Shown here: in pieces, positions 14,972-38,932 of the stretch | Numbering within the stretch: position 1 is the stretch's first letter | Layout: each line of letters starts with the position of its first letter | Source: Daejeonella sp. | GTDB lineage: Bacteria > Bacteroidota > Bacteroidia > Sphingobacteriales > Sphingobacteriaceae | DNA: 64,000 nt | Direction of reading: 5' to 3' | Assembly: GCF_030695525.1 (NCBI RefSeq) | Contig: NZ_JAUYSS010000053.1 | Coordinates: forward strand, 1 to 64,000 | Position numbers and translations under genes: made by a program | The notes under the pieces: model-generated | The model's database searches: none | Seen by the model: the letters and a program-made list of their open reading frames with translations, nothing else | Told to the model about the DNA's origin: nothing

Positions 14972-16228
14972 ATGAAACGCAGGGATATCATCAAGTGCTT
15001 AACGATTCTGCCGATAGCTGAATTTTCTACTTTTAACCTATTTGGAAATTCAATTATTGATGAATACGCGCCTTTGTTGAATTCTGCTTCATGCAAATCT
15101 TTTCTATCTGACCTCCATAAAAACGCCTTTGTTATGGATGGTCATATTCATATGATGACCAGGCAGTTATTACAGGGACTTGATATCGGAGATCGTTATC
15201 CGGATGGTCATGTTGATCTTCCCAGAGCTATTGAGGGGGGATTGGATGCAATGTTTTTCTCCTGTTATACTCCTGAGCCTTATTATCCCGACCGTCATGA
15301 ATTAAAAAATACATTCCGTGTAGTAGAACTGGCTCTTGCACAGATAGAGAAGAACAATCACCTTATTGAACTTGCACATACTGCTTCAGATATTGTCAGA
15401 ATAAACCGCAAGGGAAAGATGGCAGCTTTTCTGGATCTTGAAGGAGGTTTTGACCTGGATGGTGATCTGAATATATTAAGGGCACTTTATCGTTTAGGGC
15501 TTAGGTCCGTTCAGCTCACTGCTCATAATGAAACAAATGCGTTCATTGATTCCTGTTATGGAGAGAAGCGCTGGGGTGGGATAAATGCCCATGGGCGCAC
15601 TGTTGTTACTGAGATGAACAAGTTAGGGATGCTTATTAATGTTGCCCATGCATCAGATGATGCAATCCTTCAGACAGTTGAAGCGAGCAGCCAACCTGTG
15701 ATTTATAGCCACGGAGGTTTCCGTGGTATTGTAAACAGTTTACGGTGTATTACCGATGAATGCGCAAAAGCATTAGCAGCAAAGGGTGGGGTAATTGGAA
15801 TACAATTCGGTAGCAGTTTCAATAATCCAAAATATGCCCAATGGGTGGAATCAAAACGACAGGCTGGATCCGGTACAATAGCTGATCCAATAGAAAGAAA
15901 AGCTTTGTCTATAGAAGAGGTGGATCAATCCCTATCCAAAGGACTCCCCTTCGTTCATAAAGGAGTAATTCCCGATGAATACTGGATGGGAACAGATCAG
16001 CTTGCAAAAGTTATTGATTATGGCGTACGTCTTGTTGGAGAAGATCATATTGCACTGGGTTCTGATTTTGATGGGGGCCCACCGCTTCCCAGAGAAATAA
16101 AGGATGTAAGTGATTATCCTCAAATGACTTATGCAATGCAGAAGCTTGGGTATTCCGAGGAACGAATTCGTAAAATTCTCGGACTGAACTGGTTGAGAGT
16201 GATAAGGGAAGTCACTGAAAAAAAATAA
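14972..16228 (+). CDS. Exported membrane-dipeptidase (peptidase M19) family protein
   Basis: A TIM-barrel metallopeptidase of the renal dipeptidase family, 418 residues. It opens with MKRRDIIK and a hydrophobic stretch, a Tat-like signal shared with four later genes. Metal-site motifs are DGHIH (His58, His60), the bridging Glu157 in LEGG, NVAHAS, YSHGG and GSDFDG. In characterised family members the first site is HxD; here the Asp is replaced by His, as judged by alignment to DGHNDLP. M19 enzymes cleave dipeptides, tolerate a D-residue at the C-terminal side, and some act on other amides. As first gene of the locus it may take off an amino-acyl or acyl group in the periplasm. The 73 bp gap to the next gene suggests cotranscription. 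Confidence 0.85.
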   Translation: MKRRDIIKCLTILPIAEFSTFNLFGNSIIDEYAPLLNSASCKSFLSDLHKNAFVMDGHIHMMTRQLLQGLDIGDRYPDGHVDLPRAIEGGLDAMFFSCYTPEPYYPDRHELKNTFRVVELALAQIEKNNHLIELAHTASDIVRINRKGKMAAFLDLEGGFDLDGDLNILRALYRLGLRSVQLTAHNETNAFIDSCYGEKRWGGINAHGRTVVTEMNKLGMLINVAHASDDAILQTVEASSQPVIYSHGGFRGIVNSLRCITDECAKALAAKGGVIGIQFGSSFNNPKYAQWVESKRQAGSGTIADPIERKALSIEEVDQSLSKGLPFVHKGVIPDEYWMGTDQLAKVIDYGVRLVGEDHIALGSDFDGGPPLPREIKDVSDYPQMTYAMQKLGYSEERIRKILGLNWLRVIREVTEKK

Positions 16229-16301
16229 TGGAGTAATTATGTCTTGATTGTTATCAATTAGCACAATGATCCTGAAAATGAGTTAATGTTTAAATTTTAT
16301 T

Positions 16302-17582
16302 ATGATGATAAAAAAAGTTCAAAGAGTACTGTTATTGATTTTATTAGCAAGTATGAGCTTGCCATTGAGTTCATTGAATGCGCAGGAAATTGATTTATTA
16401 CTGAAAGGCGGTCATGTTATAGATCCAAAAAACAGTATTAATTCAAAAATGGATATAGGAATTAAGGATGGTAAGGTGTTTCGTGTTTCAACCAATATTC
16501 CTGCAAGCTCCTCAAAAAAGACTGTTGATGTAAGTGGTCTCTATGTTACACCGGGAATAATAGATATACACACTCATGTTTTTGCAGGTACACAAGATCC
16601 CGGATTTTCAGGGTTCGAAATTACCAACGGTTTTGGGAGTGTTGTGCCTGATGATTTTACTTTCCGCGCAGGGGTAACTACAGTAGTGGATGCGGGGTCC
16701 TCTGGCTGGAGGAATTTCCACACATTTAAAAAGCAAACCATTGATAATTCTCAAACCAGAGTCCTTGCATTCATTAGTATAGCGGGATATGGAATGCTTG
16801 GAACAGTTCATGCCCAGGATGTTACCGATATGAATCCTGTAGCAACTGCCTTTATAATGAATGAATATCCGGATCATATTGTAGGAATAAAGGCACATCA
16901 TTATCGCGGTCATGATTTTACACCTGTGGATCGTGCAGTAGCTGCAGGTAATATTACTAAAAAGCCTGTAATTGTGGATTTTGGAGGAAGTACCCCTCGT
17001 TTATCAATCGAGGAATTATTTATGAAACATTTGCGACCAGGGGATATATTCACGCATACATATGCTTATTCTTTGCCAGGCAGGGAATCAGTAGTGGATG
17101 AAAATAATAAACTAAAGCCCTTTGTTCTTGAGGCACAGAAAAGCGGAAGAATCTTTGACGTGGGACATGGTGGAGGTGCTTTCAGATGGCATGTAGCAAA
17201 TGCTTCTATCAAGCAAGGATTTCTTCCAAATACGATCAGTACTGATCTGTACCGTGCGAGCAGAAATGCCGGTATGAAGGATATGGCCAATGTCATGTCT
17301 AAATTTCTGGCTCTTGGTTTATCCATTGAAGATATTATTCTTCGATCTACCTGGAATCCTGCAAAAGTAATACAAAGAACCGAGCTGGGACATTTGAGTG
17401 TGGGTGCTGAAGCTGATCTTGCAGTTTTCAATGTCAGGGAAGGGAAATTTGGCTTCATGGATGCAAGAGGTTTAACTATGAATGGCAATAAAAAATTTGA
17501 AGCTGAATTAACTTTAAGATCAGGCAGAATTGTTTGGGATCTGAATGGTATCAGCGGCCAGCAATGGGATTCGGTTCAATAA
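16302..17582 (+). CDS. Exported COG3964 amidohydrolase/deacetylase, paralog 1
   Basis: Amidohydrolase-superfamily enzyme of 426 residues with a Sec signal ending near LNAQ. The composite N-terminal sheet starts LLLKGGHVIDPKN and the barrel carries HTH at His90/His92. Lys197 (VGIKAHH) is the expected carboxylated bridging lysine; His252 (FTHTY) and Asp315 (STDLY) complete most of a binuclear site. The beta-5 position, His in the COG3964 consensus I recall (MVHIG), is Asp226 here. DVGHGGG and the terminal WDLNG are family hallmarks. Characterised COG3964 enzymes hydrolyse acetyl esters of (R)-2-hydroxy acids and, weakly, N-acetyl-D-serine; dihydroorotase or adenine deaminase labels for the family are wrong. 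It probably deacylates the imported substrate in the periplasm. Closest local relative: 19381-20688. Confidence 0.88.
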   Translation: MMIKKVQRVLLLILLASMSLPLSSLNAQEIDLLLKGGHVIDPKNSINSKMDIGIKDGKVFRVSTNIPASSSKKTVDVSGLYVTPGIIDIHTHVFAGTQDPGFSGFEITNGFGSVVPDDFTFRAGVTTVVDAGSSGWRNFHTFKKQTIDNSQTRVLAFISIAGYGMLGTVHAQDVTDMNPVATAFIMNEYPDHIVGIKAHHYRGHDFTPVDRAVAAGNITKKPVIVDFGGSTPRLSIEELFMKHLRPGDIFTHTYAYSLPGRESVVDENNKLKPFVLEAQKSGRIFDVGHGGGAFRWHVANASIKQGFLPNTISTDLYRASRNAGMKDMANVMSKFLALGLSIEDIILRSTWNPAKVIQRTELGHLSVGAEADLAVFNVREGKFGFMDARGLTMNGNKKFEAELTLRSGRIVWDLNGISGQQWDSVQ

Positions 17583-17649
17583 TAAACATGCAGGATAGCC
17601 TCAATAAACTAGGCTTAGCACTCCTGCAATAAACTAAAATTAAGCGAAT

Positions 17650-19335
17650 ATGAAACGTAGAAATGTTTTAAAAACTCTAACCTTGCTTCCTTTTGCAGGA
17701 GGGGCAATCCAGGGAAACTCTGCATCTGCCGCTCAGGAGATAACCGGATCATTAAGGGGACCCATTAATCCGGCTACAGCCGGAGTGGAAATCACTCTTG
17801 AGTCCTTTATGTCAGATAAAAATATTTATAGAACTCATGGTATTGAACCGGTAATTAATTGCCGTGGTATCTTTACAATTATTGGTGGTTCACTCAAGCG
17901 ACCTCAGGTTAAGGCCGCCATGGAAGCAGCTTCGAAAAACTTTGCACAAATGGATGAAGTGGCCGACGGTATCGGTCAGCAACTTGCTAATCTGACCGGT
18001 GCAGAATGGGGCGTGGTTTCTGCCGGCTGTGCTGCAGGATTAAAACTGGTTACTGCAGCTGTGGTGGCCGGCGGAGATCCAGAGAAACTTGTGCGTATTC
18101 CAAATCTGGAAGGTCTTGAAAAAACAGAGGTTATCGTTCCACGGACTTCACGGAATTCTTATGATCATGCTATCAGAAATATAGGCGTAACTATGATTAA
18201 TGTAGGCTCTATGGAGGAACTTGAGAATGCCATAAATCCCAAAACGGCCATGATCTACCTTGTTAATGGAGACCGATCATGGACAGGGGCACCTATGTCT
18301 CTTGAAAATATCGTTGCGGTAGCGAAGCCGAAAAATATACCGGTACTTTTTGATGCAGCTAATGAAATATTAACCTTCCCTCCGGTTCATTTGAAACGTG
18401 GGGCAACCATTGTTGCTTATAGCGGTGGCAAAGCAATTTGTGGGCCACAGTCCTGTGGACTAATACTTGGTAATAAGGAGATTTTGACATCGGCATGGCA
18501 GGCTAGTTCTCCACACCATGGGCCTTGCAGGGATAATAAGGTAGATCGCGATGAAATGTTTGGGATGGTTGCTGCAGTCAGGGCCTGGAAGGAGATTGAC
18601 CATGATGCGATATTGAAGCAGTGGAATTCTTATCTCGATCATATTATTAAGAAAGTATCGGGAATAAACAGTGTCCAAACAATGGTTCATGTCCCTTCAA
18701 CCCAATCCGGACTTTCGAATGTGTCGCCGGAAGTTGTGATAAGCTGGGATAAGGATGTACTTAACATTACCGGACTTGAAATGGCTGATGAACTGGCCAG
18801 AACAAAACCGAGGATTGCAGTGGCTGCTGGTGGAGGAAGAGGTAAAGACCCAAATGTTAACGGAATTGCGGTTACTACGATAGGTATGCAACCCGGTGAA
18901 GAAAAAATTGCTGCAGACAAAATTTATAAAATATTGACTGCTAAAAGAGCTCCTATTTCTACAGAAATGCAAGCCCCGGCCCAAAGCCTGGCGGGAAGTT
19001 GGGACGTAGACGTGAAATTCTCAAGCAGTTCGGCAAAACATAAACTTTTTCTTGAACAGGATGGTAACTGGATTAAGGGAGGTCATCAAACAACATTTGC
19101 AGTAAGTGATTTATCCGGAAGCATTGAAGGGAATCAGATCAGGCTTCAAAGTGCTCTAAGACTTATCGGAGATCATGTTCCATATACTTTCACAGGTACT
19201 GTTTCGGGTGATCAAATGACCGGAAGTATTTTTATGGGAGAATACCGAAGTGCGCAGTTCACTGCTGTCAGAGATAAAAAGGCGGGTCCAAAACAAAAGA
19301 TTTTTGTTCCATCGGGAGCACCCCTTTCCAGTTAA
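17650..19335 (+). CDS. Tat-exported SelA/DgaE-like PLP enzyme, paralog 1
   Basis: The 561-residue fold-type I PLP protein starts MKRRNVLKTLTLLPFAGG, a twin-arginine signal. The core (about residues 55-435) resembles SelA and D-glucosaminate-6-phosphate ammonia-lyase DgaE. Lys261 in AYSGGKAICGPQS is the expected Schiff-base lysine and Asp235 in LFDAANE pairs with the PLP ring nitrogen. GAEWGVVSAGCAAG binds the phosphate end. A domain of about 95 residues follows (SLAGSWDVDVKF to FTAVR) that looks like a small beta-barrel and is absent from SelA. It is not a selenocysteine synthase: it is exported, has paralogs and lacks the tRNA-binding N-terminus. The likely reaction is alpha,beta-elimination of water and ammonia from an amino acid or amino-sugar acid. 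It sits between amidohydrolases 1 and 2. Confidence 0.85.
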   Translation: MKRRNVLKTLTLLPFAGGAIQGNSASAAQEITGSLRGPINPATAGVEITLESFMSDKNIYRTHGIEPVINCRGIFTIIGGSLKRPQVKAAMEAASKNFAQMDEVADGIGQQLANLTGAEWGVVSAGCAAGLKLVTAAVVAGGDPEKLVRIPNLEGLEKTEVIVPRTSRNSYDHAIRNIGVTMINVGSMEELENAINPKTAMIYLVNGDRSWTGAPMSLENIVAVAKPKNIPVLFDAANEILTFPPVHLKRGATIVAYSGGKAICGPQSCGLILGNKEILTSAWQASSPHHGPCRDNKVDRDEMFGMVAAVRAWKEIDHDAILKQWNSYLDHIIKKVSGINSVQTMVHVPSTQSGLSNVSPEVVISWDKDVLNITGLEMADELARTKPRIAVAAGGGRGKDPNVNGIAVTTIGMQPGEEKIAADKIYKILTAKRAPISTEMQAPAQSLAGSWDVDVKFSSSSAKHKLFLEQDGNWIKGGHQTTFAVSDLSGSIEGNQIRLQSALRLIGDHVPYTFTGTVSGDQMTGSIFMGEYRSAQFTAVRDKKAGPKQKIFVPSGAPLSS

Positions 19336-19380
19336 ATTCAAAATACTTAAATTAAATTCAAACTTCTTTAAATCAATCAA

Positions 19381-20688
19381 ATGAATAAACAATTTATCAG
19401 AAAGGCGTCTATGTATGCCGCTGCATTAATCATTACAGTTGGTCTATTCAGCAATTCAGAACTTCAGGCCCAGGAAATTGATATGCTTATAAAAGGCGGT
19501 CATGTGATCGACCCTAAGAATAAAATTGACGGCAAAATGGATATTGCGATTAAGGATGGCAAAATTTTTCGGGTTGCTTCTGATATTCCAGCTAGCAGCG
19601 CCAAAAAAACAGTAAATGCTACCGGATTGTATGTTTCTCCGGGCTTCATAGATATCCATACTCATGTTTTTGCAGGAACTCAGGATCCCGGATTTACAGG
19701 ATTTGGAATAACCGATGGTTTTGGAAGTGTCGTGCCTGATGATTTTACATTTCGTTCAGGTGTAACCACAGTAGTTGATGCAGGATCTGCAGGTTGGAGA
19801 GATTTTTATAAATTCAAAAAGCAGACTATTGACAATTCTCAGACCCGGGTGCTTGCCTTTATAAGTATCGCAGGTCATGGAATGCTGGGTACTGTACATG
19901 CGCAGGATACGACTGATATGAACCCTGTGGCTACCGCTTTTATCATGAATGAATATCCTGATATTATTGTTGGCATTAAGGCACATCACTATCGCGGGAA
20001 TGATTTCACTCCTGTCGATCGTGCTATAGCAGCCGGTAAGATTACAAATAAGCCAATCATTGTAGATTTCGGGTCAAGTACTCCTAAATTATCTATAAAA
20101 GATTTGTTTTTAAAACATTTCAGACCTGGAGATATTTTCACACATACCTATTCCGGTTCAGATATTTCTGAGAAAAATCCCGGAGGTCGTGAGTCTGTAG
20201 TTGATGAAAACAATAAAGTAAAACCCTTCATTTTTGAAGCTCAGAAGCAAGGCAGAATCTTTGACGTTGGTCATGGTGGTGGTGCTTTTGTATGGAGTAC
20301 GGCAATCAACAGCCTTAAGCAGGGTTTCCTTCCAAATACCATCAGCACCGATTTGTATAGAAACAGTAGAAATGCAGGGATGAAGGATATGGCGAATGTA
20401 ATGTCAAAATTTCTGGTAATGGGAATGTCTATTCAGGATGTGATTTTACGTTCAACCTGGAATCCCGCAAATGTAATTCAGCATCCTGAACTTGGACATC
20501 TGAGTGTGGGAGCAGAAGCCGATGTGACAGTATTCAATGTAAGGGAAGGTAATTTCGGATATATGGATGCTCGTGGTTCAGTATTTAACGGAACCAAGAA
20601 AATAGAGGCAGAATTAACCCTTCGTGCCGGTAAGGTAGCCTGGGATTTAAATGGTCTTAGCGGGCCACAGTGGAATGCAGTCAGATGA
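19381..20688 (+). CDS. Exported COG3964 amidohydrolase, paralog 2
   Basis: A 435-residue close relative of paralog 1 (16302-17582), sharing long identical runs such as AGTQDPGF and GSVVPDDFTFR. A signal peptide ends near LQAQ. HTH, VGIKAHHYRG (bridging Lys), VDFGSST (Asp at the beta-5 position), FTHTY and STDLYR are all retained, so the metal site is the same variant as in paralog 1. It differs by a short insertion, GSDISEKNPGG, after THTYS, in the loop leading to GRESVVDE. It lies 45 bp after the first PLP-enzyme gene. The pair probably arose by tandem duplication around that gene. The same deacylase role is expected, with perhaps different acyl or stereochemical preference. Confidence 0.87.
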   Translation: MNKQFIRKASMYAAALIITVGLFSNSELQAQEIDMLIKGGHVIDPKNKIDGKMDIAIKDGKIFRVASDIPASSAKKTVNATGLYVSPGFIDIHTHVFAGTQDPGFTGFGITDGFGSVVPDDFTFRSGVTTVVDAGSAGWRDFYKFKKQTIDNSQTRVLAFISIAGHGMLGTVHAQDTTDMNPVATAFIMNEYPDIIVGIKAHHYRGNDFTPVDRAIAAGKITNKPIIVDFGSSTPKLSIKDLFLKHFRPGDIFTHTYSGSDISEKNPGGRESVVDENNKVKPFIFEAQKQGRIFDVGHGGGAFVWSTAINSLKQGFLPNTISTDLYRNSRNAGMKDMANVMSKFLVMGMSIQDVILRSTWNPANVIQHPELGHLSVGAEADVTVFNVREGNFGYMDARGSVFNGTKKIEAELTLRAGKVAWDLNGLSGPQWNAVR

Positions 20689-20712
20689 TAATTAATATAA
20701 TCAGATAAAATT

Positions 20713-22041
20713 ATGCGAATTAAAACAGTAAATATTTCAAAGTTTATTCAGTGTGCAACTGTTCGGATGGTATATGGAATTGCTGCTGTTTTAGTTCCCA
20801 TCTTGATAGCATCAGGGGTTTATGCACAGGAAATAGATATTCTTCTGAAAGGCGGCCATGTTATTGATCCAAAGAATAATATCAATTCTAAAATGGATGT
20901 AGCTATTGTTGGTGATAAAATATTCCGTGTTGCGAAAGATATACCGGCTAATATGTCTAAAAAGACAGTTGATATAAGTGGCTTATATCTTACTCCCGGG
21001 ATTATTGATATGCACGCACATGTATTTCATGGGCCGGATGTCAATAGTATATCGGCTAATTCTCCCGGGGGCTTACAAGCAGATGCATTTTCATTCAGAG
21101 CAGGAGTTACCACAGTAGTGGATGCGGGTTCTTCCGGATGGAGGAATTTCCCGCTTTTTAAATCACAGGTAATAGATCGATCCCAAACCCGCATTTTAGC
21201 TTTTTTAAATGTTGTTGGCAGAGGGATGGTTACCCGATTTGATCAACAGGATGTTACGGATATGAACCCCGAAATGAATGCTTATATGATCAAAAGATTA
21301 CACCCGAATATCCTGGTGGGCATTAAATCTGCTCATTTCTGGGGTGATTTTACTTCGGTTGATAAGGCGGTTGAATCAGGAAAACTGGCAGACGTTCCGG
21401 TTATTGTAGATTTCGGAGAGCATTCCCCTCCCAATTCTATTGAATCTCTATTTATGGAGCATTTCAGACCAGGCGATATCTTTACCCATACTTTCTCTGA
21501 GCATGCAATTTCAGGGACTAACCCCGGCCGGGAATCCATTGTTGATCAAAATACCAGAAAGGTTAAACCCTTCGTGTTTGCAGCCCAGAAACGGGGTGTC
21601 ATTTTCGATGTTGGGCATGGTGCAGGAGCATTCAATTTTAATCAGGCGATACCCGCGATGAAACAGGGTTTTATGCCAAATACAATCAGTACCGACCTGT
21701 ACAATTTAAGTATGAATGCAGCGATGAAGGATATGGCAAATGTGATGTCAAAGTTTCTGGCAATGGGTATGGGACTACAGGATGTTATTTTACGATCTAC
21801 ATGGAATCCTGCTCAAGTAATTAAACGCCCTGATTTAGGCCATTTAAGTGTCGGTTCTGAGGCTGATATTGCTGTTTTTAACTTAAAAAAAGGAAATTTC
21901 GGCTATATGGATGTACGGCGTACAAAAATCAGCGGAACAGAAAAACTTGAAGCAGAATTGACTATCAGAGCAGGGCGTGTGGTTTGGGATTTAAATGGAA
22001 TTAGCGTTCCACAATGGCAAATGCCGGCAGTTACTAATTGA
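20713..22041 (+). CDS. Exported COG3964 amidohydrolase, paralog 3
   Basis: A 442-residue amidohydrolase with a long N-terminal signal segment ending GVYAQ. The barrel motifs are HAH, VGIKSAHFWG (bridging Lys), VDFGEHSPPNS (Asp at beta-5), FTHTF, DVGHGAG and STDLYN. It forms a distinct subgroup with paralog 5 (25932-27260). The two share ILAFLNV, MNPEMNAYMIK and SVDKA-ESGKLADVP, and 21 of 24 residues match in the segment starting ADAFSFR. It is the first gene of a three-gene block (20713-25014) that reappears at 25932-30229. The gap of 24 bp from paralog 2 implies cotranscription. Confidence 0.86.
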   Translation: MRIKTVNISKFIQCATVRMVYGIAAVLVPILIASGVYAQEIDILLKGGHVIDPKNNINSKMDVAIVGDKIFRVAKDIPANMSKKTVDISGLYLTPGIIDMHAHVFHGPDVNSISANSPGGLQADAFSFRAGVTTVVDAGSSGWRNFPLFKSQVIDRSQTRILAFLNVVGRGMVTRFDQQDVTDMNPEMNAYMIKRLHPNILVGIKSAHFWGDFTSVDKAVESGKLADVPVIVDFGEHSPPNSIESLFMEHFRPGDIFTHTFSEHAISGTNPGRESIVDQNTRKVKPFVFAAQKRGVIFDVGHGAGAFNFNQAIPAMKQGFMPNTISTDLYNLSMNAAMKDMANVMSKFLAMGMGLQDVILRSTWNPAQVIKRPDLGHLSVGSEADIAVFNLKKGNFGYMDVRRTKISGTEKLEAELTIRAGRVVWDLNGISVPQWQMPAVTN

Positions 22042-25058: not shown

Positions 25059-25147
25059 CTAATTTTGGTATAACTTACCTGATGTTTAATTATTAACTTT
25101 CTAAATACCTTATTGCAAGCCTAATTCATAAAATAACAATCAAATTG

Positions 25148-31275: not shown

Positions 31276-32208
31276 ATGTTTTCAAAAAATTATAGATTTT
31301 ATCTATCTCTTGTTTTTATTTGTTATTTAGGTTCAGTTTCTAACCTATTCGCACAGGCGATACCTAAGGAGGAATTGATATTTTTAACTTCAGCCTGGAA
31401 GGGTGAGCGATTTGCCGACGGTCGTCCAAGGATTTCGGATGACTTATTGAAACGTGCCCGTGAAATAGGTATTGAAGAAGCCTGGCAAATCCTGAATAAT
31501 GAAGGATATCTGTATCAGTATGAGCGCAATTGGAAAATACTTCACGAAGATGTTACAGTAGTAGGTCGGGCTTTGACTGCTCAGTTTATGCCAATCCGCC
31601 CGGATGTGGAAAAGAATATTGTAGAACGTGCAGCAAAGGAAGGCCGTGCGGGAAGACATTTGCATTGGCCGATCAATATGTTGACTAAGGGAGATGTATA
31701 TGTTGCCGATAATAAAGGCAGGGTGGGATCGCTTATGGGCGATAACCTTGGTAATGTGATCTATAAGAATTCAGGCAATGGGGTTGTCTTCGACGGATTT
31801 GCCCGTGATATAGATGGTTTGGCGGAAATAAAAGGCTTTAATGCTCATGTCAGGGATTTTGCTCCTCAGTTTTTACAAGGTGTAGTGTTAATGGGATTGA
31901 ATACACCAATCACTATTGGGTCGGCGATTGTTCTTCCTGGCGATCTGGTTATTGCCGGAAGGGCAGGTGTAGTTTTCATTCCGGCACATATGGCTGAGCT
32001 GGTTATTTCTACAGCAGAATTTATTGCATCTAAAGATCGTTTCGGACATGAGATGATCAGGAGTGGGACTTATAAGGCAAATGAGGTCGATACTCAGTGG
32101 ACCGATACAATTAAGGTTGAGTATCTGAAATGGCTGGATCGGAATCCGGCTGAAAAGAAGATTACCCGTGCGCAATTGGATCAGTTTATGTCGAAAAGAA
32201 CCTATTAA
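31276..32208 (+). CDS. Exported RraA/HMG-aldolase-fold protein
   Basis: A 310-residue protein with a signal peptide ending NLFAQ. The core shows the RraA-fold signature shared with 4-hydroxy-4-methyl-2-oxoglutarate/CHA aldolases: GDNLGNVIYKNSG, then GVVFDGFARDIDGL with the Arg-Asp pair, and IVLPGDLVIAGRAGVVFIP. HMG/CHA aldolases cleave 4-hydroxy-2-oxo acids to pyruvate and can decarboxylate oxaloacetate with a divalent metal. They are normally cytosolic; a signal peptide is unusual. The protein has N- and C-terminal extensions compared with the roughly 160-230 residues usual for the family. It is 8 bp upstream of the transporter gene. Confidence 0.8.
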   Translation: MFSKNYRFYLSLVFICYLGSVSNLFAQAIPKEELIFLTSAWKGERFADGRPRISDDLLKRAREIGIEEAWQILNNEGYLYQYERNWKILHEDVTVVGRALTAQFMPIRPDVEKNIVERAAKEGRAGRHLHWPINMLTKGDVYVADNKGRVGSLMGDNLGNVIYKNSGNGVVFDGFARDIDGLAEIKGFNAHVRDFAPQFLQGVVLMGLNTPITIGSAIVLPGDLVIAGRAGVVFIPAHMAELVISTAEFIASKDRFGHEMIRSGTYKANEVDTQWTDTIKVEYLKWLDRNPAEKKITRAQLDQFMSKRTY

Positions 32209-32216: not shown

Positions 32217-33335
32217 ATGAAGCCAGTATTCAAAATAGTGATGGGTTTGGGTTCAATCTGCCTCCTGGCAGCACTGATTCTTTACCTGGTCAATAATCCA
32301 AAAACAGCAGAACCCTTCTTAATTGTTGGTATCGTTTGTTTTGCACTGGGTGTCAGGGGAGTATCTGCTCTGAAGGGCTTCGCTTATCCGATCATGATTG
32401 TGGGGGTAGTTTCAACAGCCCTGATATTTCCGCAGTATTTTATAGAGATCAATGGCTATAAGCTTTCCGGACTAATAACCCCGCTGATTCAGTTAATCAT
32501 GTTCGGGATGGGTATTACTATGAGTTACAAAGACTTTCTGGGTGTATTCAAAGCACCAAAAGGAGTATTTGTAGGTATATTCAGTCATTTTACAATTATG
32601 CCCCTGCTGGGCTTTGCCCTTGCAAGCATGAGTAATTTTGAACCGGAAATTGCCGCCGGGATGATTTTGATTGGCTGTGCCCCGAATGCGGTTGCGGCCA
32701 ATGTAATTTCATATCTGGCAAAAGCAAATCTGGCCTTGTCAATCACCCTGACCTCGATTGCTACCTTATTGGCTCCATTCCTTACACCTTTATTGATGAA
32801 ATTGCTGGGGGGCTCATTTATTGAGATTAATGTACTTGATATGATGTGGGATATTATGAAAATGGTCATTCTTCCGATCACATTGGCTATCGTGCTGAAT
32901 GAACTGCTTAAAGATAAGATCAAGTGGTTGAATTCGATAATGCCAATGGTGTCAATGTTTGGGATTGCTTTCATCATTATCATTGTAACTGCAGTAGGGA
33001 GAGAAAGCCTGCTAACAGTTGGACCACTTCTGATTTTGTTGGTATTGATCCTTAACTTGTTAGGCTATACGCTGGGCTACTGGTCGGGTAGATTGTTCGG
33101 AATGAATGAAAAGGATTGCCGGACAATAGCCATAAATGTAGGTATGCAGAATGCGGGACTTTCAAAGGGTTTGGCTCATGGTATGGGCAAACTGGGTACT
33201 GTTGGATTAGCACCTATGATCTATGGCCCGATGATGAATATCACTGGTTCTATCCTAGCCTCATATTGGCAGAACAGACCACCCCTTGATCCGGGAAGTG
33301 AAAACAATGAAGCTGAAATAAATTCTTCTAAATAA
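32217..33335 (+). CDS. BASS-family (bile acid:Na+ symporter-like) transporter
   Basis: A 372-residue inner-membrane protein with about ten membrane segments. Family signatures are GCAPNAVAANVIS, LSITLTSIATLLAPFLTPLL and IAINVGMQNAGLS. BASS carriers move organic anions such as bile acids, pyruvate, pantothenate-type acids and other oxo-acids with sodium. An additional N-terminal pair of membrane segments (IVMGLGSICLLAALILYLV and the next) precedes the core. Placed between exported and cytosolic enzymes, it is the obvious route for the organic acid made in the periplasm. The exact substrate is unknown. Confidence 0.88.
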   Translation: MKPVFKIVMGLGSICLLAALILYLVNNPKTAEPFLIVGIVCFALGVRGVSALKGFAYPIMIVGVVSTALIFPQYFIEINGYKLSGLITPLIQLIMFGMGITMSYKDFLGVFKAPKGVFVGIFSHFTIMPLLGFALASMSNFEPEIAAGMILIGCAPNAVAANVISYLAKANLALSITLTSIATLLAPFLTPLLMKLLGGSFIEINVLDMMWDIMKMVILPITLAIVLNELLKDKIKWLNSIMPMVSMFGIAFIIIIVTAVGRESLLTVGPLLILLVLILNLLGYTLGYWSGRLFGMNEKDCRTIAINVGMQNAGLSKGLAHGMGKLGTVGLAPMIYGPMMNITGSILASYWQNRPPLDPGSENNEAEINSSK

Positions 33336-33338
33336 ACT

Positions 33339-33770
33339 ATGAAATTAAAATATATCTGCATTTTAATCACTTTGGCAGGGATTAGTTTTAGCTTAAATGC
33401 TCAGACAAAAAAGGAACAACGTGTTGTGCAGTTGGTGAATGATTTTAATCAGGCTATTATCAGTACCGATAGCACAGGCTTAAAAAGCCTGGTATGGGAA
33501 GATTTAAGTTACGGACATTCTTCCGGACTTGTCCAGGATAAGGCAGCATTTATTGCGGGAGTGATGAATGGCCCCAACTTTTTCAAGAAATTCGACCTGC
33601 AAAACCAAACGATTAAAGTTTCAGGAAAAAACGCAGTGGTCAGACATGTGGCTATTGCCCATGCTGTTAATCAGGGAAATCCGGTTGAAATCAGGTTTGG
33701 GAATATTCTCATCTGGCAAAAGAAACAAGGGCATTGGAAGCTGCTGGCCCGACAAGGATATAAGCTTTAA
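33339..33770 (+). CDS. Exported NTF2-like (DUF4440-type) protein
   Basis: A 143-residue protein with a signal peptide ending LNAQ and one cone-shaped NTF2-like domain. It shows the helical start RVVQLVNDFNQAIISTDS, LVWEDLSYGHSSG, then VSGKNAVVRHVAIAH and the closing WKLLARQGYKL. Such domains are small-molecule-binding or isomerase-like, and many have no known activity. It starts 3 bp after the transporter stop, so it is cotranscribed. It could bind or isomerise a pathway intermediate in the periplasm; nothing in the sequence decides this. Confidence 0.75.
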   Translation: MKLKYICILITLAGISFSLNAQTKKEQRVVQLVNDFNQAIISTDSTGLKSLVWEDLSYGHSSGLVQDKAAFIAGVMNGPNFFKKFDLQNQTIKVSGKNAVVRHVAIAHAVNQGNPVEIRFGNILIWQKKQGHWKLLARQGYKL

Positions 33771-33842
33771 CACTATCTGAATTAATTACAAACAGGATGG
33801 TATGCCCGGAAGGGCTATTCATCAGAATACAAATTTTATAAA

Positions 33843-34508
33843 ATGGATAAGAAAACAGAGCTAAAAGCTCTCATTAAGGAGCAGGGGATTGTCCCTTTGT
33901 ACTATGCTGCAGATGCCGGGGTCAGTATTGAGTTAATGCGTGCAATGTACGAGGGGGGGATTCGCACAACCGAGTATGCAAATCGTGGAGAACAGGCGAT
34001 GAAGAACTTTAAGGAAATGCGTAAGGCATGTGATGCAGAAATGCCGGGTATGCGTTTAGGTATTGGGACAATTAAAAATACAGAAGCAGCGAAAGAATAT
34101 ATCGGTGAAGGTGCTGAGTTCCTGGTCTGTCCCGGTATTTTGGAGTCTGTAATCGAGCTGTCAGATGATCATAATTTGCTCTGTGTTCCCGGCTGTATGA
34201 CCCCTAGTGAAATCATCCGTGCCGAATCCTGTGGCGTGAACATGGTGAAACTTTTTCCGGCAAATACGCTGGGCCCTTCTTATATTGAGGCAGTTCAGGC
34301 ATTGTTTACAGATATGACTTTCTTACCCACAGGTGGTATTGAACTGAATGAGGACAACCTTAGGTCTTGGTTTAAAGTTGGAGTTTGTGCTGTGGGTGGA
34401 AGTAAGATGATAACTAAAGCGGTAATCGAGAATCAGCTTTATGATGACTTGAGTAAAGAATGTCATCGTGCTTTGGATCTGATTAAAACGATTCGGGAGA
34501 GTTTATAA
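33843..34508 (+). CDS. KDPG/KHG-type (2-oxo-3-deoxy acid) aldolase
   Basis: A 221-residue class I aldolase, cytosolic (no signal). Glu44 (RTTEYANRG) and Lys136 (VNMVKLFPAN) match the catalytic Glu and Schiff-base Lys of KDPG aldolase; GIGTIKN and LPTGGIELNEDN are also conserved. The family cleaves 2-oxo-4-hydroxy acids to pyruvate plus an aldehyde or glyoxylate. In the enterobacterial dga pathway the aldolase DgaF works with the PLP enzyme DgaE, and the same pairing of families is seen here. This suggests that the PLP enzymes produce a 2-oxo-3-deoxy acid which this aldolase splits. Confidence 0.92.
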   Translation: MDKKTELKALIKEQGIVPLYYAADAGVSIELMRAMYEGGIRTTEYANRGEQAMKNFKEMRKACDAEMPGMRLGIGTIKNTEAAKEYIGEGAEFLVCPGILESVIELSDDHNLLCVPGCMTPSEIIRAESCGVNMVKLFPANTLGPSYIEAVQALFTDMTFLPTGGIELNEDNLRSWFKVGVCAVGGSKMITKAVIENQLYDDLSKECHRALDLIKTIRESL

Positions 34509-34558
34509 ATTAAGGAAATTAATTAAATAGAATACAAATTTTTAAGACAAATCATACA

Positions 34559-35470
34559 ATGAACGAGTCATTATATAAATACATGCGTGTGGGCCTGGTC
34601 CACTTTATGGCTTTTCCGGCCACGATCAAAGGTGAAGGGCCGGTGTTGGAAACAATCCGCAAAATTGCCGTTGATGATTATTTCAGTGCAATTGAAATAA
34701 CCACGATTAAGGATCCGGAAACCCGTCTGGCGGTTAAGAAAATGCTGGAAACCTCTCATATGACGGTAGCTTATGGAGCACAGCCAAGGTTGCTGACTAC
34801 CGGCTTGAACATTAACAGTTTAGTGGAAGAGGAACGACAGAAAGCACTTGATAACTTGAAACAGGGTATTGATGAGGCCTATGAAATTGGAGCAGCCAGC
34901 TTTGCTTTTCTCAGTGGAAACTATGAAGAAAGCAGAAAAGAAGAGGCCTTTCAGGCCCTGGTTAAATCAACTAATGAGATTTGTGCCTATGCAAAGAGCA
35001 AAGGTGATATGAAAATAGCGCTGGAGGTTTTTGATTATGATGTAGATAAAAGGAGCCTGATCGGTCCGGCAGATCTAGCCTTGCGTTATGCCAAAGAGAT
35101 CCGTAAAGCACATGATCATTTCGGTCTGATGGTAGACCTGAGCCATATTCCATTGATCCATGAAACGATTGAGGAATCAATACTTCCGGTAAAGGATTAT
35201 ATTGTGCATGCTCATATCGGGAATTGTGTGGTGAAAAGTCCAGATATGGCTGCATACGGAGATGTGCATCCAAGGTTTGGTTTCCCTAATGGCGAGAATG
35301 ATGTGGATGAAGTGGTTGAATACCTGAAGGTCTTACTGGATATAGGTTTCCTTAATACCCAAACCCCACCAGTAGTAAGTTTTGAGATTAAACCCTTTGG
35401 AGATGAGGATGCTGATGTAGTGATTGCCAATGCCAAACGGGTGCTGAATCTGGCATGGGCGAGGGTTTGA
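34559..35470 (+). CDS. AP-endonuclease-2-fold sugar isomerase/epimerase
   Basis: A 303-residue cytosolic TIM-barrel of the sugar phosphate isomerase/epimerase superfamily. Likely metal ligands are Glu in ALEVFDYD, Asp in MVDLSHIP, His in HAHIGN and Glu in SFEIKPFG, the usual Glu-Asp-His-Glu set. The superfamily includes hydroxypyruvate isomerase, tagatose epimerases and IolE/IolI. Given the dehydrogenase and glycerate kinase downstream, interconversion of tartronate semialdehyde and hydroxypyruvate is an attractive role, but epimerisation of a sugar acid is equally possible. Confidence 0.8.
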   Translation: MNESLYKYMRVGLVHFMAFPATIKGEGPVLETIRKIAVDDYFSAIEITTIKDPETRLAVKKMLETSHMTVAYGAQPRLLTTGLNINSLVEEERQKALDNLKQGIDEAYEIGAASFAFLSGNYEESRKEEAFQALVKSTNEICAYAKSKGDMKIALEVFDYDVDKRSLIGPADLALRYAKEIRKAHDHFGLMVDLSHIPLIHETIEESILPVKDYIVHAHIGNCVVKSPDMAAYGDVHPRFGFPNGENDVDEVVEYLKVLLDIGFLNTQTPPVVSFEIKPFGDEDADVVIANAKRVLNLAWARV

Positions 35471-35534
35471 TTATAAGCTAAAAGCAGAAAGCTAAAAGCA
35501 TAAAGTAAAAAGGATTATTAGAACTGAAATAAGC
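35471..35534. repeat. Imperfect AAAGCTAAAAGC tandem repeat
   Basis: The 64 bp spacer holds three imperfect copies of a 12-14 bp unit (TAAGCTAAAAGC, AAAGCTAAAAGC, AAAGTAAAAAG) between about 35474 and 35511. A similar word set occurs in inverse orientation at 63384-63420, so this seems to be a dispersed intergenic repeat of the genome. Confidence 0.6.
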
Positions 35535-36494
35535 ATGAAGTTAGTTGTATTAGATGGTTATACCTTAAATCCCGGGGATTTGACCTGGGAGGGAATAAAA
35601 CAATTCGGGAACCTGGAGGTGCATGATCGCACACCTGAAAGCCTGATCGTAGAGCGTTGTCAGGGAGCAGAGATCATTTTTACGAACAAGACCCCGCTCA
35701 GGGAGTCTGTACTTTCTCAGCTACCTGACCTGAAATACATCGGAGTTCTGGCAACAGGTTACAATGTAGTGGATGTAGACTATGCAAAAACCAGAGGGAT
35801 TGCAGTGGCCAATGTACCTGGTTATGGTACGGCATCTGTGGTACAAATGACCTTCGCCTTATTGCTGGAATTATGCCAGCATGTACAGAGCCATAGCGAT
35901 TCGGTTCGTCAGGGCGACTGGGCAGCATCACCCGATTTTTGTTACTGGAATTATCCATTGATTGAGTTAGAAGGAAAAACAATTGGAATCATTGGTTTCG
36001 GCAGTATCGGGCAGAAAGTGGCAGATATTGCAACGGCTTTTGGAATGAATATTCTGGGTTATTCCAGGACCAAATCAGATCAATCGCATCGAAAAAATTT
36101 CAAATGGGCTGAACTGAATCAGCTCTTGAAGGAGTCGGATGTGGTGAGTGTTCACTGTCCGCTTTTCCCTGATACACAGGGCATTATTAATAAAGACACT
36201 TTGAAACTTATGAAGCCCAGTGCTTTCTTCTTGAATACCTCCAGAGGGCCGCTGATGGTTGATCAGGATCTGGCAGACGCATTAAACAAGGGAATCATAG
36301 CAGGCGCAGGGATTGATGTGTTATCAGTAGAACCTCCATCGGCAGACAATCCTTTGTTTAAGGCGAAGAATTGCCTGATTACTCCCCATATTGCATGGGC
36401 AACTAAAGAAGCCCGTTCCAGATTGATGGGAATTGCAGAAAAAAATTTATCTTCATTCCTTAATCAAAAACCTGTTAATATTGTAAATAAATAA
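35535..36494 (+). CDS. D-2-hydroxyacid dehydrogenase, hydroxypyruvate/glycerate type
   Basis: The 319-residue NAD(P)-dependent enzyme has the Rossmann loop IGFGSIGQKVADIA. The catalytic Arg and Glu are in NTSRGPLMVDQ and AGIDVLSVEPP, and the catalytic His in TPHIAWAT. TPHIAW and ATGYNVVDVD are typical of the glycerate dehydrogenase (HprA-like) subgroup, which reduces hydroxypyruvate to D-glycerate. A glycerate kinase follows three genes later, which supports that assignment. Cytosolic, with no signal peptide. Confidence 0.88.
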   Translation: MKLVVLDGYTLNPGDLTWEGIKQFGNLEVHDRTPESLIVERCQGAEIIFTNKTPLRESVLSQLPDLKYIGVLATGYNVVDVDYAKTRGIAVANVPGYGTASVVQMTFALLLELCQHVQSHSDSVRQGDWAASPDFCYWNYPLIELEGKTIGIIGFGSIGQKVADIATAFGMNILGYSRTKSDQSHRKNFKWAELNQLLKESDVVSVHCPLFPDTQGIINKDTLKLMKPSAFFLNTSRGPLMVDQDLADALNKGIIAGAGIDVLSVEPPSADNPLFKAKNCLITPHIAWATKEARSRLMGIAEKNLSSFLNQKPVNIVNK

Positions 36495-36511
36495 ATAAAA
36501 CCAAAAATTAA

Positions 36512-37084
36512 ATGATTATGAAAAAGTACTCTCTATTATTTCTTATTTCAGCAGCCTTATTAAGTTGTAATCCTAAGCAGGAAGATGCTGCAAAACAGGA
36601 AACAACAGCTGTTGCTGATACTGTAGATATTGAAGCTCGTTTAAAGGAATTAAATATAGAGCTTACAACTCCGAAGCCACCGACAGCTAATTTCGTAAAA
36701 ACTGTACGTGTAGGTAACCTCGTGTATACTTCAGGTCACGGTCCTGACCGGGCAGAAGGTGGGCCTTTAACAGGCAGAGTTGGTGGCGATTTAAGCCTGG
36801 AGCAGGGTCAGGAAGCTGCGCGTTTAACAGGTATTTCGTTACTCTCGAGCTTAAAGGCTGAAATTGGTGACCTGAACAAAGTAAAGCGTGTGGTTAAAGT
36901 ATTAGGGATGGTTCAGTCTACTCCTGAATTTAAAGATCAGCCGAAGGTGATGAATGCATTCTCTGATATGATGGTTGATATTTTCGGAGAGAAAGGCAAG
37001 CATGCCCGCTCAGCTGTAGGTATGAACGCATTACCTGGAAACATTGCTGTAGAAATTGAAATTATTGTCGAAGTAGAGGATTAA
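36512..37084 (+). CDS. Lipoprotein RidA/YjgF-family protein, copy 1
   Basis: A 190-residue protein with a lipoprotein signal MIMKKYSLLFLISAALLSC. The RidA domain starts near residue 45 and carries VRVGNLVYTSGHGP, the conserved Arg in HARSAVGMNALPGNIAVEIE and the final Glu-rich strand. RidA proteins hydrolyse reactive enamine/imine products such as 2-aminoacrylate made by PLP-dependent eliminations. Most are cytosolic; a lipidated form is unusual and fits the exported PLP enzymes of this locus. It is 17 bp after the dehydrogenase gene and is duplicated immediately downstream. Confidence 0.88.
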   Translation: MIMKKYSLLFLISAALLSCNPKQEDAAKQETTAVADTVDIEARLKELNIELTTPKPPTANFVKTVRVGNLVYTSGHGPDRAEGGPLTGRVGGDLSLEQGQEAARLTGISLLSSLKAEIGDLNKVKRVVKVLGMVQSTPEFKDQPKVMNAFSDMMVDIFGEKGKHARSAVGMNALPGNIAVEIEIIVEVED

Positions 37085-37113
37085 TAATTCCTAAAAGACA
37101 TACACTCCTAATT

Positions 37114-37165
37114 TTAATGCTGATTTACTTTTCTTCTGGATTTGGTAGATCAGCATTAATTTTTT
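37114..37165 (+). terminator. Long-loop terminator-like hairpin between the two RidA genes
   Basis: TTAATGCTGAT (37114-37124) pairs with ATCAGCATTAA (37149-37159) across a 24-nt loop, followed by six T residues (37160-37165). It is likely to reduce read-through into the second RidA and glycerate kinase genes, or to end the main operon. Confidence 0.6.
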
Positions 37166-37210
37166 AAAGACCGTTGATTTAATTTAATGTTTTATCAGAA
37201 TTATTTCAAA

Positions 37211-37771
37211 ATGAAAAAGTATTTTCTAATATCCCTGATCGCTCTTGTTTTAACAGGCTGTAATTCTGCACCAAATGAGAGGGACAAAGAGGCTCCAAAG
37301 GCTGAACATATTGATTTCGATAAGCACCTTAAGGATCTGAACATAGTGCTTGCGGAGCCAAGTGCACCCTTAGCCAGCTACGTAAAGACTGTCCGTGTGG
37401 GAAATCTAGTGTATACAGCCGGGCATGGACCTGATAAGCCGGATGGCAGCAGGATTACCGGAAGGCTTGGTGATGATTTAACCCTGGAGCAAGGCCAGGA
37501 AGCTGCACGCTTAACCGGTATTTCATTGCTTTCGAGTTTAAAGGCAGAACTCGGTGATTTGAATAAAGTGAAGCGAATAGTTAAGGTTTTAGGGATGGTG
37601 CAATCAGCTCCGGATTTTAAAGATCAGCCTAAAGTGATGAATGCATTTTCTGATCTGATGGTAGAAGTATTTGGAGAGAAGGGTAAACATACCCGTTCAG
37701 CTGTAGGTATGTCAGCGCTTCCGGCAAATTGGGCCACAGAAATTGAAATGGTAATAGAGGTTGAAGATTAA
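37211..37771 (+). CDS. Lipoprotein RidA/YjgF-family protein, copy 2
   Basis: Start placed at the ATG at 37211, giving 186 residues with lipobox VLTGC; the frame continues upstream to 37187 but adds residues that spoil the signal. It closely resembles copy 1: TVRVGNLVYT-GHGPD, LTLEQGQEAARLTGISLLSSLKAE and RSAVGMSALPANWATEIE with the conserved Arg. The first 40 residues differ, as expected for a lipoprotein linker. Two paralogs could serve different enamine substrates, matching the multiple PLP enzymes upstream. Confidence 0.88.
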   Translation: MKKYFLISLIALVLTGCNSAPNERDKEAPKAEHIDFDKHLKDLNIVLAEPSAPLASYVKTVRVGNLVYTAGHGPDKPDGSRITGRLGDDLTLEQGQEAARLTGISLLSSLKAELGDLNKVKRIVKVLGMVQSAPDFKDQPKVMNAFSDLMVEVFGEKGKHTRSAVGMSALPANWATEIEMVIEVED

Positions 37772-37792
37772 AATAGAACTGATTCTAACATA

Positions 37793-38932
37793 ATGCATAT
37801 TCTGATTGCTCCTAATGCCTTTAAACATAGCCTTACTGCAAATGAGACTGCTGATGCTATTCAGGAGGGTTTGAAACGCAGTGGGTTAAATTTTACTTCT
37901 GAATGCTTCCCTATTGCAGACGGTGGTGATGGTACCGGACATTTAATCGTCGAGAAATGTGGTGGAATCTGGCATGAGTATGATGTTCACGATCCATTAG
38001 GGCGCCTGATAAAAGCTTCGCTGGGTATAATAGATCAGGGTAAAACCGCAGTTATTGAAATGGCTGATGCTTCGGGCATCCGTTTGTTAAATGAGGATGA
38101 AAGATCCCCTCTAATGGCTACTTCTTTTGGAACCGGGGAATTAATCAGTTTTGCTTTGGACAGGCAGGTCGAAAGGATTATCATAGGTCTTGGAGGTTCT
38201 GCCACTGTCGATGGAGGAGTTGGAATTTTAAGTGCTCTGGGTATGAAATTCAGGGATGCTGATGGGCTCGAATTGGCAGCGGTGCCGGTTAATATGGCGT
38301 GCTTCCATCATATTGATGCCTCAATGTTTGATGATCGGGTCTTGAAATGTCATATCACCGTACTTTGCGATGTAGATAATTTACTCCTCGGCGAACAAGG
38401 ATCAGCAGCAGTTTTTGGTCCTCAAAAGGGAGCAAGCCCGGAAGATGTAAAACTTCTGGATCTGGCATTGGCCAATTTGTCGGAGATTGCTTTTAAGTCG
38501 ACCGGAATCAAAATGAATGAAATTATTCATGGAGGAGCTGCAGGTGGTATCGCTGCGGCTTTACGGGCATTTTTTAAGGCAGATTTAGTGAATGGGGGAG
38601 AACATTTTTTACAAATAACCGGTTTTCATGAAAGTTTGAAGAATGCCGATTTGCTGATAACCGGAGAGGGTAGTCTTGATGAGCAGACTTTGCAGGGAAA
38701 AGGCCCTTTTGCTGTAGCCAAATATGCAAAGGAGAAAGGCATCCCGGTTATCGGGCTTGCCGGGAAAGTGCCGCTGATGGATCATCCTGAGTTGAATAAA
38801 TATTTCGACCTGCTGCTGGCTATTGGCAATCAGCCTAATGATCTGGAAACTGCGATGAAATTTACCGCTTCTAACCTGATCCGCACTTCCTTAATTGTGG
38901 GGAGGTTTCTGTCTTTAACAAAAAGTTCATAA
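37793..38932 (+). CDS. Glycerate kinase (GarK/GlxK family)
   Basis: A 379-residue cytosolic kinase that phosphorylates D-glycerate with ATP. Family signatures: LIAPNAFKHSLTANETADAI at the N-terminus, FPIADGGDGTGHL, IIGLGGSATVDGGVGILSALG, FGPQKGA and LLITGEGSLDEQTLQGKGP. It is 21 bp after the second RidA gene and ends the run of catabolic genes. It gives the pathway an exit to glycolysis at 2- or 3-phosphoglycerate; most members of this family make 2-phosphoglycerate. Confidence 0.94.
   Translation: MHILIAPNAFKHSLTANETADAIQEGLKRSGLNFTSECFPIADGGDGTGHLIVEKCGGIWHEYDVHDPLGRLIKASLGIIDQGKTAVIEMADASGIRLLNEDERSPLMATSFGTGELISFALDRQVERIIIGLGGSATVDGGVGILSALGMKFRDADGLELAAVPVNMACFHHIDASMFDDRVLKCHITVLCDVDNLLLGEQGSAAVFGPQKGASPEDVKLLDLALANLSEIAFKSTGIKMNEIIHGGAAGGIAAALRAFFKADLVNGGEHFLQITGFHESLKNADLLITGEGSLDEQTLQGKGPFAVAKYAKEKGIPVIGLAGKVPLMDHPELNKYFDLLLAIGNQPNDLETAMKFTASNLIRTSLIVGRFLSLTKSS

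Follow-up and report, generated by a model that had tools for sequence, protein, structure and literature searches.

The window, the whole 64,000-nucleotide stretch of Daejeonella sp. DNA that was analysed, is a contig of a 4.2-Mb genome and carries an island of about 30 kb that runs from an ECF sigma factor gene to a glycerate kinase gene (7760-38932, all on the + strand). Its greater part, at 14972-38932, consists of 21 genes, all on the + strand, with intergenic gaps of at most 130 bp; among them are six COG3964 amidohydrolases (AH1 to AH6) and three pyridoxal phosphate (PLP) proteins distantly related to DgaE (PLP1 to PLP3). Upstream of 14972, genes for SusD, SusC, FecR and the ECF sigma factor belong to the same block, and a divergent ROK gene lies further left. 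The exported-looking proteins very probably form one pathway. The scheme that we favour, at a probability of about 0.5 for the whole, is the extracytoplasmic catabolism of N-acylated 2-amino-2-deoxy-aldonates (amino-sugar acids).

Genes of the island and their neighbours

The features are as follows, with scores of family models in brackets.

6074..7330, - strand: ROK-family regulator beside the island, optional member (PF00480 207.9 bits)
7760..8326, + strand: ECF sigma factor (Sigma70_r2/r4), syntenic in loci L011, L012, L014 and L017
8435..9655, + strand: FecR anti-sigma factor (FecR, FecR_C)
9786..13190, + strand: SusC-type TonB-dependent outer-membrane transporter (STN, CarbopepD_reg_2, Plug)
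13250..14674, + strand: SusD-type surface lipoprotein (SusD_RagB 141.7 bits)
14972..16228, + strand: M19 dipeptidase-family protein, predicted Tat-type signal, start MKRRDIIK (PF01244 279.5 bits)
16302..17582, + strand: AH1, COG3964 amidohydrolase, K type, Sec-like start (NF006689 431.6 bits, above cut-off)
17650..19335, + strand: PLP1, DgaE-related PLP protein, predicted exported, start MKRRNVLK, Schiff-base Lys (TIGR01437 144.7 bits, below cut-off)
19381..20688, + strand: AH2, COG3964 amidohydrolase, K type (NF006689 427.4 bits)
20713..22041, + strand: AH3, COG3964 amidohydrolase, K type, 70% identical to AH5 (NF006689 427.2 bits)
22076..23338, + strand: AH4, COG3964 amidohydrolase, R type, strand-4 Lys replaced by Arg (NF006689 397.5 bits)
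23365..25014, + strand: PLP2, DgaE-related PLP protein, predicted exported, start MKRRNVIK (TIGR01437 137 bits)
25145..25891, + strand: CBM9_2 protein, predicted exported (PF16011 132 bits)
25932..27260, + strand: AH5, COG3964 amidohydrolase, K type (NF006689 426.1 bits)
27307..28578, + strand: AH6, COG3964 amidohydrolase, R type, 76% identical to AH4 (NF006689 410.7 bits)
28580..30229, + strand: PLP3, DgaE-related PLP protein, predicted exported, start corrected from 28535 (TIGR01437 143 bits)
30265..31218, + strand: Amidohydro_2 protein of a lactonase-containing family, predicted exported (PF04909 132.5 bits)
31276..32208, + strand: RraA-fold protein, candidate class II aldolase, predicted exported, Asp-x20-Arg-Asp (PF03737 63.3 bits)
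32217..33335, + strand: BASS/PanS-like symporter (PF01758 130 bits; PanS 220.1 bits, below cut-off 400)
33339..33770, + strand: NTF2-like DUF4440 protein, predicted exported (PF14534 58.7 bits)
33843..34508, + strand: KDPG/KHG-type aldolase, predicted cytosolic, Lys in VKLFPA (PF01081 112.1 bits)
34559..35470, + strand: AP_endonuc_2 TIM-barrel isomerase/epimerase (PF01261 66.3 bits)
35535..36494, + strand: D-2-hydroxyacid dehydrogenase (PF02826, PF00389)
36512..37084, + strand: RidA lipoprotein 1, lipobox LLSC (PF01042/PF14588)
37187..37771, + strand: RidA lipoprotein 2 (PF14588/PF01042/LPAM_1)
37793..38932, + strand: glycerate kinase, right end of the island, retained in the reduced island L023 (TIGR00045 388.8 bits, above cut-off)

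All six COG3964 genes, the three PLP genes and the partners that a sequence-only reading had listed at 14972-38932 were found in the family searches. The extent that it gave holds for this run, but the real block reaches upstream through SusD, SusC, FecR and the ECF factor to 7760, and the third PLP gene, which it began at 28535, probably starts at 28580, where the profile match begins. The order K-type amidohydrolase, R-type amidohydrolase, PLP protein occurs twice in the run (AH3-AH4-PLP2 and AH5-AH6-PLP3), with matching members 70, 76 and 62.5% identical, which suggests growth by duplication. For the Amidohydro_2 protein, the best NCBIfam model is 4-sulfomuconolactone hydrolase (72.1 bits against a cut-off of 500). 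The BASS protein exceeds the gathering score of PF01758 and stays below the cut-offs of PanS and of TIGR00841 (207.6 bits against 326.3). The Lys of VKLFPA in the KDPG/KHG-type aldolase stands at a position of recognised role in such enzymes.

Conservation of the block and of its partnerships

The borders of the island were read from the site around Asd (5021 in the window) in eight genomes of the same genus. Four of these (G118, G164, G188 and G219) lack both families, PLP and amidohydrolase, at E 1e-60, and in all four Asd and PBP4 stand together: 82 bases separate the matches in one genome and 17 in another, and a single extra gene intervenes in the remaining two. In the window Asd and PBP4 are 33 kb apart, and PBP4 follows the glycerate kinase. 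Genome G296 holds the block in two pieces: one contig (L120) keeps the gene order of the downstream half up to and including glycerate kinase, PBP4 and DoxX, and the upstream half lies on another (L122). A reduced island, ROK-PLP-CBM9-dehydrogenase-glycerate kinase, lies between Asd and PBP4 in a Daejeonella JGW-45 record (L023). Asd is followed by an amidohydrolase gene in G299 and by a ROK gene in G142, with the PLP genes on other contigs in both. The empty sites, the two halves in G296 and the reduced island together indicate that the block from ECF factor to glycerate kinase is gained and lost largely as one, and it behaves as an island. The reduced island and synteny show that the dehydrogenase and the glycerate kinase are part of it.

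Two neighbours were considered as members. The ROK gene, which is part of the block in some relatives, adjoins Asd or the ECF gene in L011, L014, L023 and L131, and is missing from L122, from L130 and from the Asd-PBP4 interval of the empty-site genomes; since G296 (L122) and G365 (L130) have the block without it, it was rejected as a fixed left end and is listed as optional. PBP4 was rejected as a member of the system because it stays in the four empty-site genomes.

Co-occurrence was scored as presence at E 1e-60 in 300 genomes of the order, with no more than four or five candidates scored in each, since the wider phylum sample was too sparse (each family in one of 118 genomes at the same E, the host only). 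The PLP family was found in 34 of the 300 and the amidohydrolase family in 35; 34 genomes have both and one has an amidohydrolase alone (Fisher p 4e-44, uncorrected for kinship). The host genome itself gave 18 PLP matches, of which contig ends truncate two, and, at E 1e-20, 24 amidohydrolases. The surroundings of its PLP genes (within 10 kb, 5.7% of the genome, window included) hold 18 of the 24 amidohydrolases, 9 of 15 RidA genes and 6 of 16 GSDH genes, after two GSDH rows of adjacent frames and three RidA rows of one frame were merged. Counted as clusters, these are 6 of 10 for the amidohydrolases (p 6e-6), 7 of 12 for RidA (p 1e-6) and 5 of 13 for GSDH (p 5e-4).

The same partners recur in operons, taken here as the same-strand run around a PLP gene, with GSDH counted under length and coverage limits that exclude bare cytochrome c genes. 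Nineteen of 20 stretches from the order, selected from the matches, have a PLP gene, and its run holds an amidohydrolase in 15, SusD in 13, RraA in 13, RidA in 12 and BASS in 9. A compact operon, ECF-FecR-SusC-SusD-RidA-PLP-AH-RraA-BASS, is found in L097, L100, L113, L114 and L127. Further away, 71 loci drawn from the best 80 of 247 relatives, many shortened by contig ends, were compared: in 43, one or more of six partner families stand in the PLP run (amidohydrolase 34, RidA 18, GSDH 16, lactonase 11, RraA 10, BASS 9). Thirteen of the 71 are close copies of the window cluster; 30 of the other 58 have a partner in the run. The sequence-only reading had made co-conservation in other Bacteroidota genomes a check on its proposal of one exported-looking deacylase/PLP system behind a SusCD unit; the search was run, a lack of co-conservation was not its outcome, and such a system does appear conserved in relatives.

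Some loci in this survey carry additional genes. A PIG-L deacetylase with a twin-Arg start lies immediately 5' of COG3964 and PLP genes at L086:1678-2709 and may be a second deacylase. At L088:8460-9755, between SusD and COG3964, a 432-residue protein starts with a twin-Arg motif and matches no Pfam family. At L081:7626-8927 a PAP2-family lipoprotein-like protein adjoins PLP and GSDH genes; members of its cluster occur in eight loci. Three consecutive COG3964 genes, with no PLP gene in the fetched stretch, lie at L083:8382-12239, and the opposite-strand genes upstream of them resemble molybdenum hydroxylase genes.

Export signals and active sites

PLP lyases and RidA proteins are usually regarded as cytosolic. 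In the island, export features, read by a simple in-house script of sequence rules and not by a trained predictor, are found on RidA and RraA as well as on the amidohydrolases and PLP proteins. The script assigns a twin-Arg motif to the M19 protein, the three PLP proteins and the Amidohydro_2 protein, a Sec-like start to the six COG3964 proteins and to the CBM9, RraA and DUF4440 proteins, and a lipobox to both RidA proteins. It finds no export signal on the aldolase, dehydrogenase and glycerate kinase, and only a short hydrophobic stretch on the TIM barrel. A twin-Arg motif lies within the first 70 residues in 134 of 138 complete PLP proteins. Of 142 amidohydrolases, 140 begin with a hydrophobic stretch and two have a twin-Arg motif. 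Only two of 53 RidA proteins (L103, L107) lack any signal, the rest being Tat-like, Sec-like or lipoproteins, including three whose twin-Arg lies outside the pattern used by the script. The four PLP proteins without twin-Arg have near-identical starts, come from records labelled Latescibacterota (three) and Gemmatimonadetes (one), and are apparently a cytosolic form. Signal-less PLP relatives in L059, L065, L069 and L078, from Latescibacterota or Gemmatimonadetes records, stand next to an Amidohydro_2-like gene and a few genes downstream of genes that we take to be pdxS/pdxT-like.

The host genome encodes one TatC, so that signal and translocase for the predicted twin-arginine translocation (Tat) are both present. 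Tat signals on the PLP proteins and Sec signals on the amidohydrolases would fit folded export of a cofactor enzyme, for which PvdN and PtaA of Pseudomonas, described as Tat-exported PLP enzymes that carry the cofactor out in the folded state, are a precedent (PMC6206403).

All six amidohydrolases score 397.5-431.6 bits against NF006689 (COG3964/PRK09237), above its cut-off of 371. The HxH motif, the strand-6 His and the strand-8 Asp, ligand positions in the superfamily, are each kept in 137-139 of 139 amidohydrolases. The strand-4 Lys is replaced by Arg in 23 of 41 R-type proteins. At the strand-5 position, likewise a ligand position in the superfamily, 2ogj, 8wzy, 8je0 and the protein from an Ensifer plasmid have His, but all 98 K-type proteins have Asp and all 41 R-type proteins have Glu; we know of no description of this change in the literature. 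The solved relatives 8je0, 2ogj, 8wzy and 2ics match by sequence across most of the amidohydrolase length, and the entries for PpOngB match only through the N-terminal stretch (E 5e-6).

The window PLP proteins are 94-95% identical to those in records labelled Daejeonella sp., Sphingobacterium thalpophilum (a metagenome-assembled genome) and Bacteroidetes bacterium. The Schiff-base Lys is kept in 135 of 135 aligned family members and the Asp upstream of it, a position of recognised role in such enzymes, in at least 97%. The sequence-only reading had called them SelA/DgaE-like; they are only distant relatives of DgaE, with model scores of 122.3-133.9 and 137-144.7 bits, the latter against the TIGR01437 cut-off of 385.3. 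On sequence grounds they are not DgaE, because the scores fall far under the cut-offs and the proton-donor histidine of DGL is absent. A predicted model of PLP3 (mean pLDDT 86.9) has Cap15 (8t7j; Z 37.5, 354 residues, 2.5 A) and DGL (7lc0; Z 37.4, 357 residues, 2.4 A) as its nearest folds, whereas the profile of the family scores higher with DGL (125 bits) than with Cap15 (96.3 bits). Both are described as acting on a beta-hydroxy-alpha-amino acid (Cap15, PMC7497351; DGL, whose substrate loses its C-3 hydroxyl, PMC9529869), which we count for the amino-sugar-acid reading. The window proteins probably catalyse beta-elimination.

The long form of the PLP protein has an additional C-terminal domain of eight strands. 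No Pfam family was matched by this domain of member 1 at E up to 1, and the others gave single weak matches only. Against the PDB the best match was 1jju (E 1.5e-3), with none at 0.001 or below; the 7n34 "Cap15" in that list is a different protein of the same name.

Of 30 aligned RraA proteins, 28 keep the Arg-Asp pair and 15 an Asp some 20 residues N-terminal to it; the protein of the window has both. In HMG/CHA aldolase the Arg is reported as essential and the Asp as metal-binding (PMC5065237), and an RraA-like protein of Flavobacterium is reported to convert 2-keto-3-deoxy-glucarate by dehydration and decarboxylation (PMC8563752). RidA genes, two in the window, are common in relatives.

Proposed pathway and its alternatives

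Gene set, unity, conservation and export signals have been computed; each reaction, the substrate, and the order and location of the steps we infer. SusCD would take an N-acylated 2-amino-2-deoxy-aldonate into the periplasm, where a Sec-exported COG3964 enzyme would strip the acyl group. A Tat-exported PLP enzyme would then eliminate ammonia from the beta-hydroxy-D-amino acid to give an enamine/imine, and lipid-anchored RidA would hydrolyse this to a 2-keto-3-deoxy acid. The BASS carrier would bring the oxo acid over the inner membrane, or pyruvate if exported RraA cleaves first. In this genus the cytosolic KDPG-type aldolase, dehydrogenase and glycerate kinase would feed the remainder into glycolysis. 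The several amidohydrolases and PLP proteins may serve different acyl groups or stereoisomers.

N-acylated 2-amino-2-deoxy-aldonates are favoured because relatives add cytochrome-linked sugar dehydrogenases and lactonases. In L101 a GSDH-cytochrome c fusion, an SGL lactonase and a cytochrome c directly precede RidA-PLP-AH-RraA-BASS; L112 is similar and lacks the lactonase. L081, in the host genome, combines GSDH, SGL, PLP, RidA, RraA and BASS; the lack of an amidohydrolase in its fetched stretch is what a free amino sugar as substrate would lead one to expect. On a Granulicella plasmid, the genes after RraA-PLP-RidA-PLP-COG3964 encode a 7-bladed lactonase, a BBE/FAD oxidase and a beta-galactosidase; most proteins of this set have signal-like starts as judged by eye. 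The L101, L081 and Granulicella loci suggest an amino sugar whose C1 is oxidised, from aldose through lactone to aldonate. Of the substrate classes left side by side in the sequence-only reading, amino-sugar acids are thus preferred to acyl-D-amino acids and acylated 2-hydroxy acids. A more far-reaching version, rather doubtful in our estimate, is that the whole of an unphosphorylated amino-sugar pathway lies outside the inner membrane in some Bacteroidota and Acidobacteriota, from cytochrome-linked C1 oxidation through lactone opening, deacetylation, PLP ammonia elimination and RidA hydrolysis to RraA aldol cleavage, with only a small oxo acid imported via BASS.

The logic of the favoured scheme is known from two systems; its location and combination of enzymes appear to be new. 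The Dga pathway of Salmonella for D-glucosaminate uses DgaE/DGL and DgaF, and is described as PTS (phosphotransferase system)-fed, phosphorylated and cytosolic (PMC9529869). The island would share its SelA-like ammonia-lyase fold with the Schiff-base Lys, its KDPG-type aldolase and its amino-sugar-acid logic, but has export signals and added deacylases, would act without phosphorylation and lacks His-162/163 of DGL. COG3964 with DgaE and a DgaF-type aldolase had been put forward as a cytosolic parallel in other phyla; the Ensifer plasmid lends it partial support, with signal-less COG3964 and RidA genes beside a PLP relative, though no DgaF aldolase was seen there. In the oxidative chitin (Ong) pathway of Pseudoalteromonas, a deacetylase and then a PLP deaminase are reported to convert N-acetylglucosaminic acid (GlcNAc1A) to 2-keto-3-deoxygluconate (KDG), a RidA protein is needed for growth, and OngB, of the D-aminoacylase family, and OngC, of fold type III, are predicted cytoplasmic (PMC9537276, PMC12017989). 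The order of steps would be the same and a RidA partner is present, but the island has COG3964 and a SelA/DGL-type fold with export signals, in place of OngB-type and fold-type III enzymes, and a search of 300 genomes of the order gave no LPMO_10. Compared with 8je0, 2ogj, 8wzy and 2ics, the island amidohydrolases retain HxH, the strand-6 His and the strand-8 Asp; they differ from all of these in having signal peptides, and from the first three in having Asp or Glu for the strand-5 His. PvdN and PtaA share the predicted folded export via Tat, but are described as single biosynthetic tailoring steps (PMC6206403), whereas the island would be a multi-copy catabolic module. Cap15, the nearest fold to the PLP3 model, differs in serving O2- and PLP-dependent antibiotic biosynthesis and is 23% identical in the aligned part. 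No description of an exported deacylase/PLP/RidA set was found in the titles and abstract beginnings listed for open-licence papers, at most 20 of up to 841 per search.

Several observations weigh against the scheme. In the three window PLP proteins nothing corresponds to the proton donor of DGL, His-163, or to the adjacent His-162; this loop has no His in them, nor in any of the eight commonest patterns among 135 PLP proteins. The printed alignment runs to residue 293. With Asp or Glu for the strand-5 His, hydrolysis by the exported amidohydrolases is not guaranteed. The island has no GSDH-type dehydrogenase, so that its compound would either enter already as the acid or depend for its oxidation on genes at other sites. 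For GSDH in L101 the match is a weak one (28.5 bits against 25). LPMO_10 (PF03067), a family of lytic polysaccharide monooxygenases (LPMO), gave no match in the 300 genomes of the order, which makes oxidised chitin produced by the cell itself unlikely; a chitin LPMO was dropped as the substrate source for this order. The cytosolic KDPG aldolase and the exported RraA would be partly redundant. Nor is the PLP/amidohydrolase partnership fixed everywhere: 28 of the 71 distant loci have a PLP gene with none of the six partner families in its same-strand run, no PLP gene lies in the fetched 18 kb of the amidohydrolase operons of G380 (L123) and G367 (L126), and one PLP gene of G358 (L125) stands alone. 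All 16 loci from Dyadobacter (L030, L032, L033, L040, L042, L044, L045, L049, L056, L057, L060, L061, L062, L066, L068 and L073) fall among these 28; in each, an exported-looking PLP gene stands by itself.

Three other explanations were weighed. The same exported route could serve N-acyl-D-amino acids such as acyl-D-serine and acyl-D-threonine, including cell-wall fragments released by M19, with BASS importing the oxo acid. An M19 gene does lie inside the island, DGL is called D-amino-acid specific in the title of a paper that PMC9529869 cites, OngC is reported to deaminate D-serine and D-threonine too (PMC9537276), and the Ensifer set lies downstream of a putative ABC transporter. We consider this unlikely, since it leaves the aldolase, the TIM-barrel epimerase family, the glycerate kinase, CBM9 and the relatives' sugar dehydrogenases and lactonases unexplained, and M19 proteins of high identity occur only in window-like loci, other matches being 23-29% identical. 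It is quite unlikely that the exported PLP proteins carry out an O2-dependent oxidation like Cap15, with RidA clearing stray imines: the tie of Cap15 and DGL as nearest folds, the missing DGL histidines, the O2 chemistry reported for exported PvdN (PMC6206403) and the cytochrome-linked enzymes nearby in relatives would agree with it, but loss of the carboxylate would deprive the 2-oxo-acid aldolase, RraA and BASS of an obvious substrate, and the profile score is higher with DGL.

A split function, with acylated 2-hydroxy acids or some other ester as the amidohydrolase substrates and the PLP proteins of the same island serving a separate one, seems very improbable, given a near-perfect co-occurrence of the two, often as adjacent genes, and the absence of the block as a whole from four genomes. 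In its favour, 2ogj is among the nearest solved relatives of the amidohydrolases; we take it to be Atu3266, which reportedly acts on acetyl-(R)-mandelate.

If deacylase, PLP lyase and RidA are exported together, recurrently and in many copies, the envelope would be a site of amino-group removal. Many Tat substrates of Bacteroidota that lack an assigned role would gain one, and a defined class of substrates would be open to direct test with purified enzymes.

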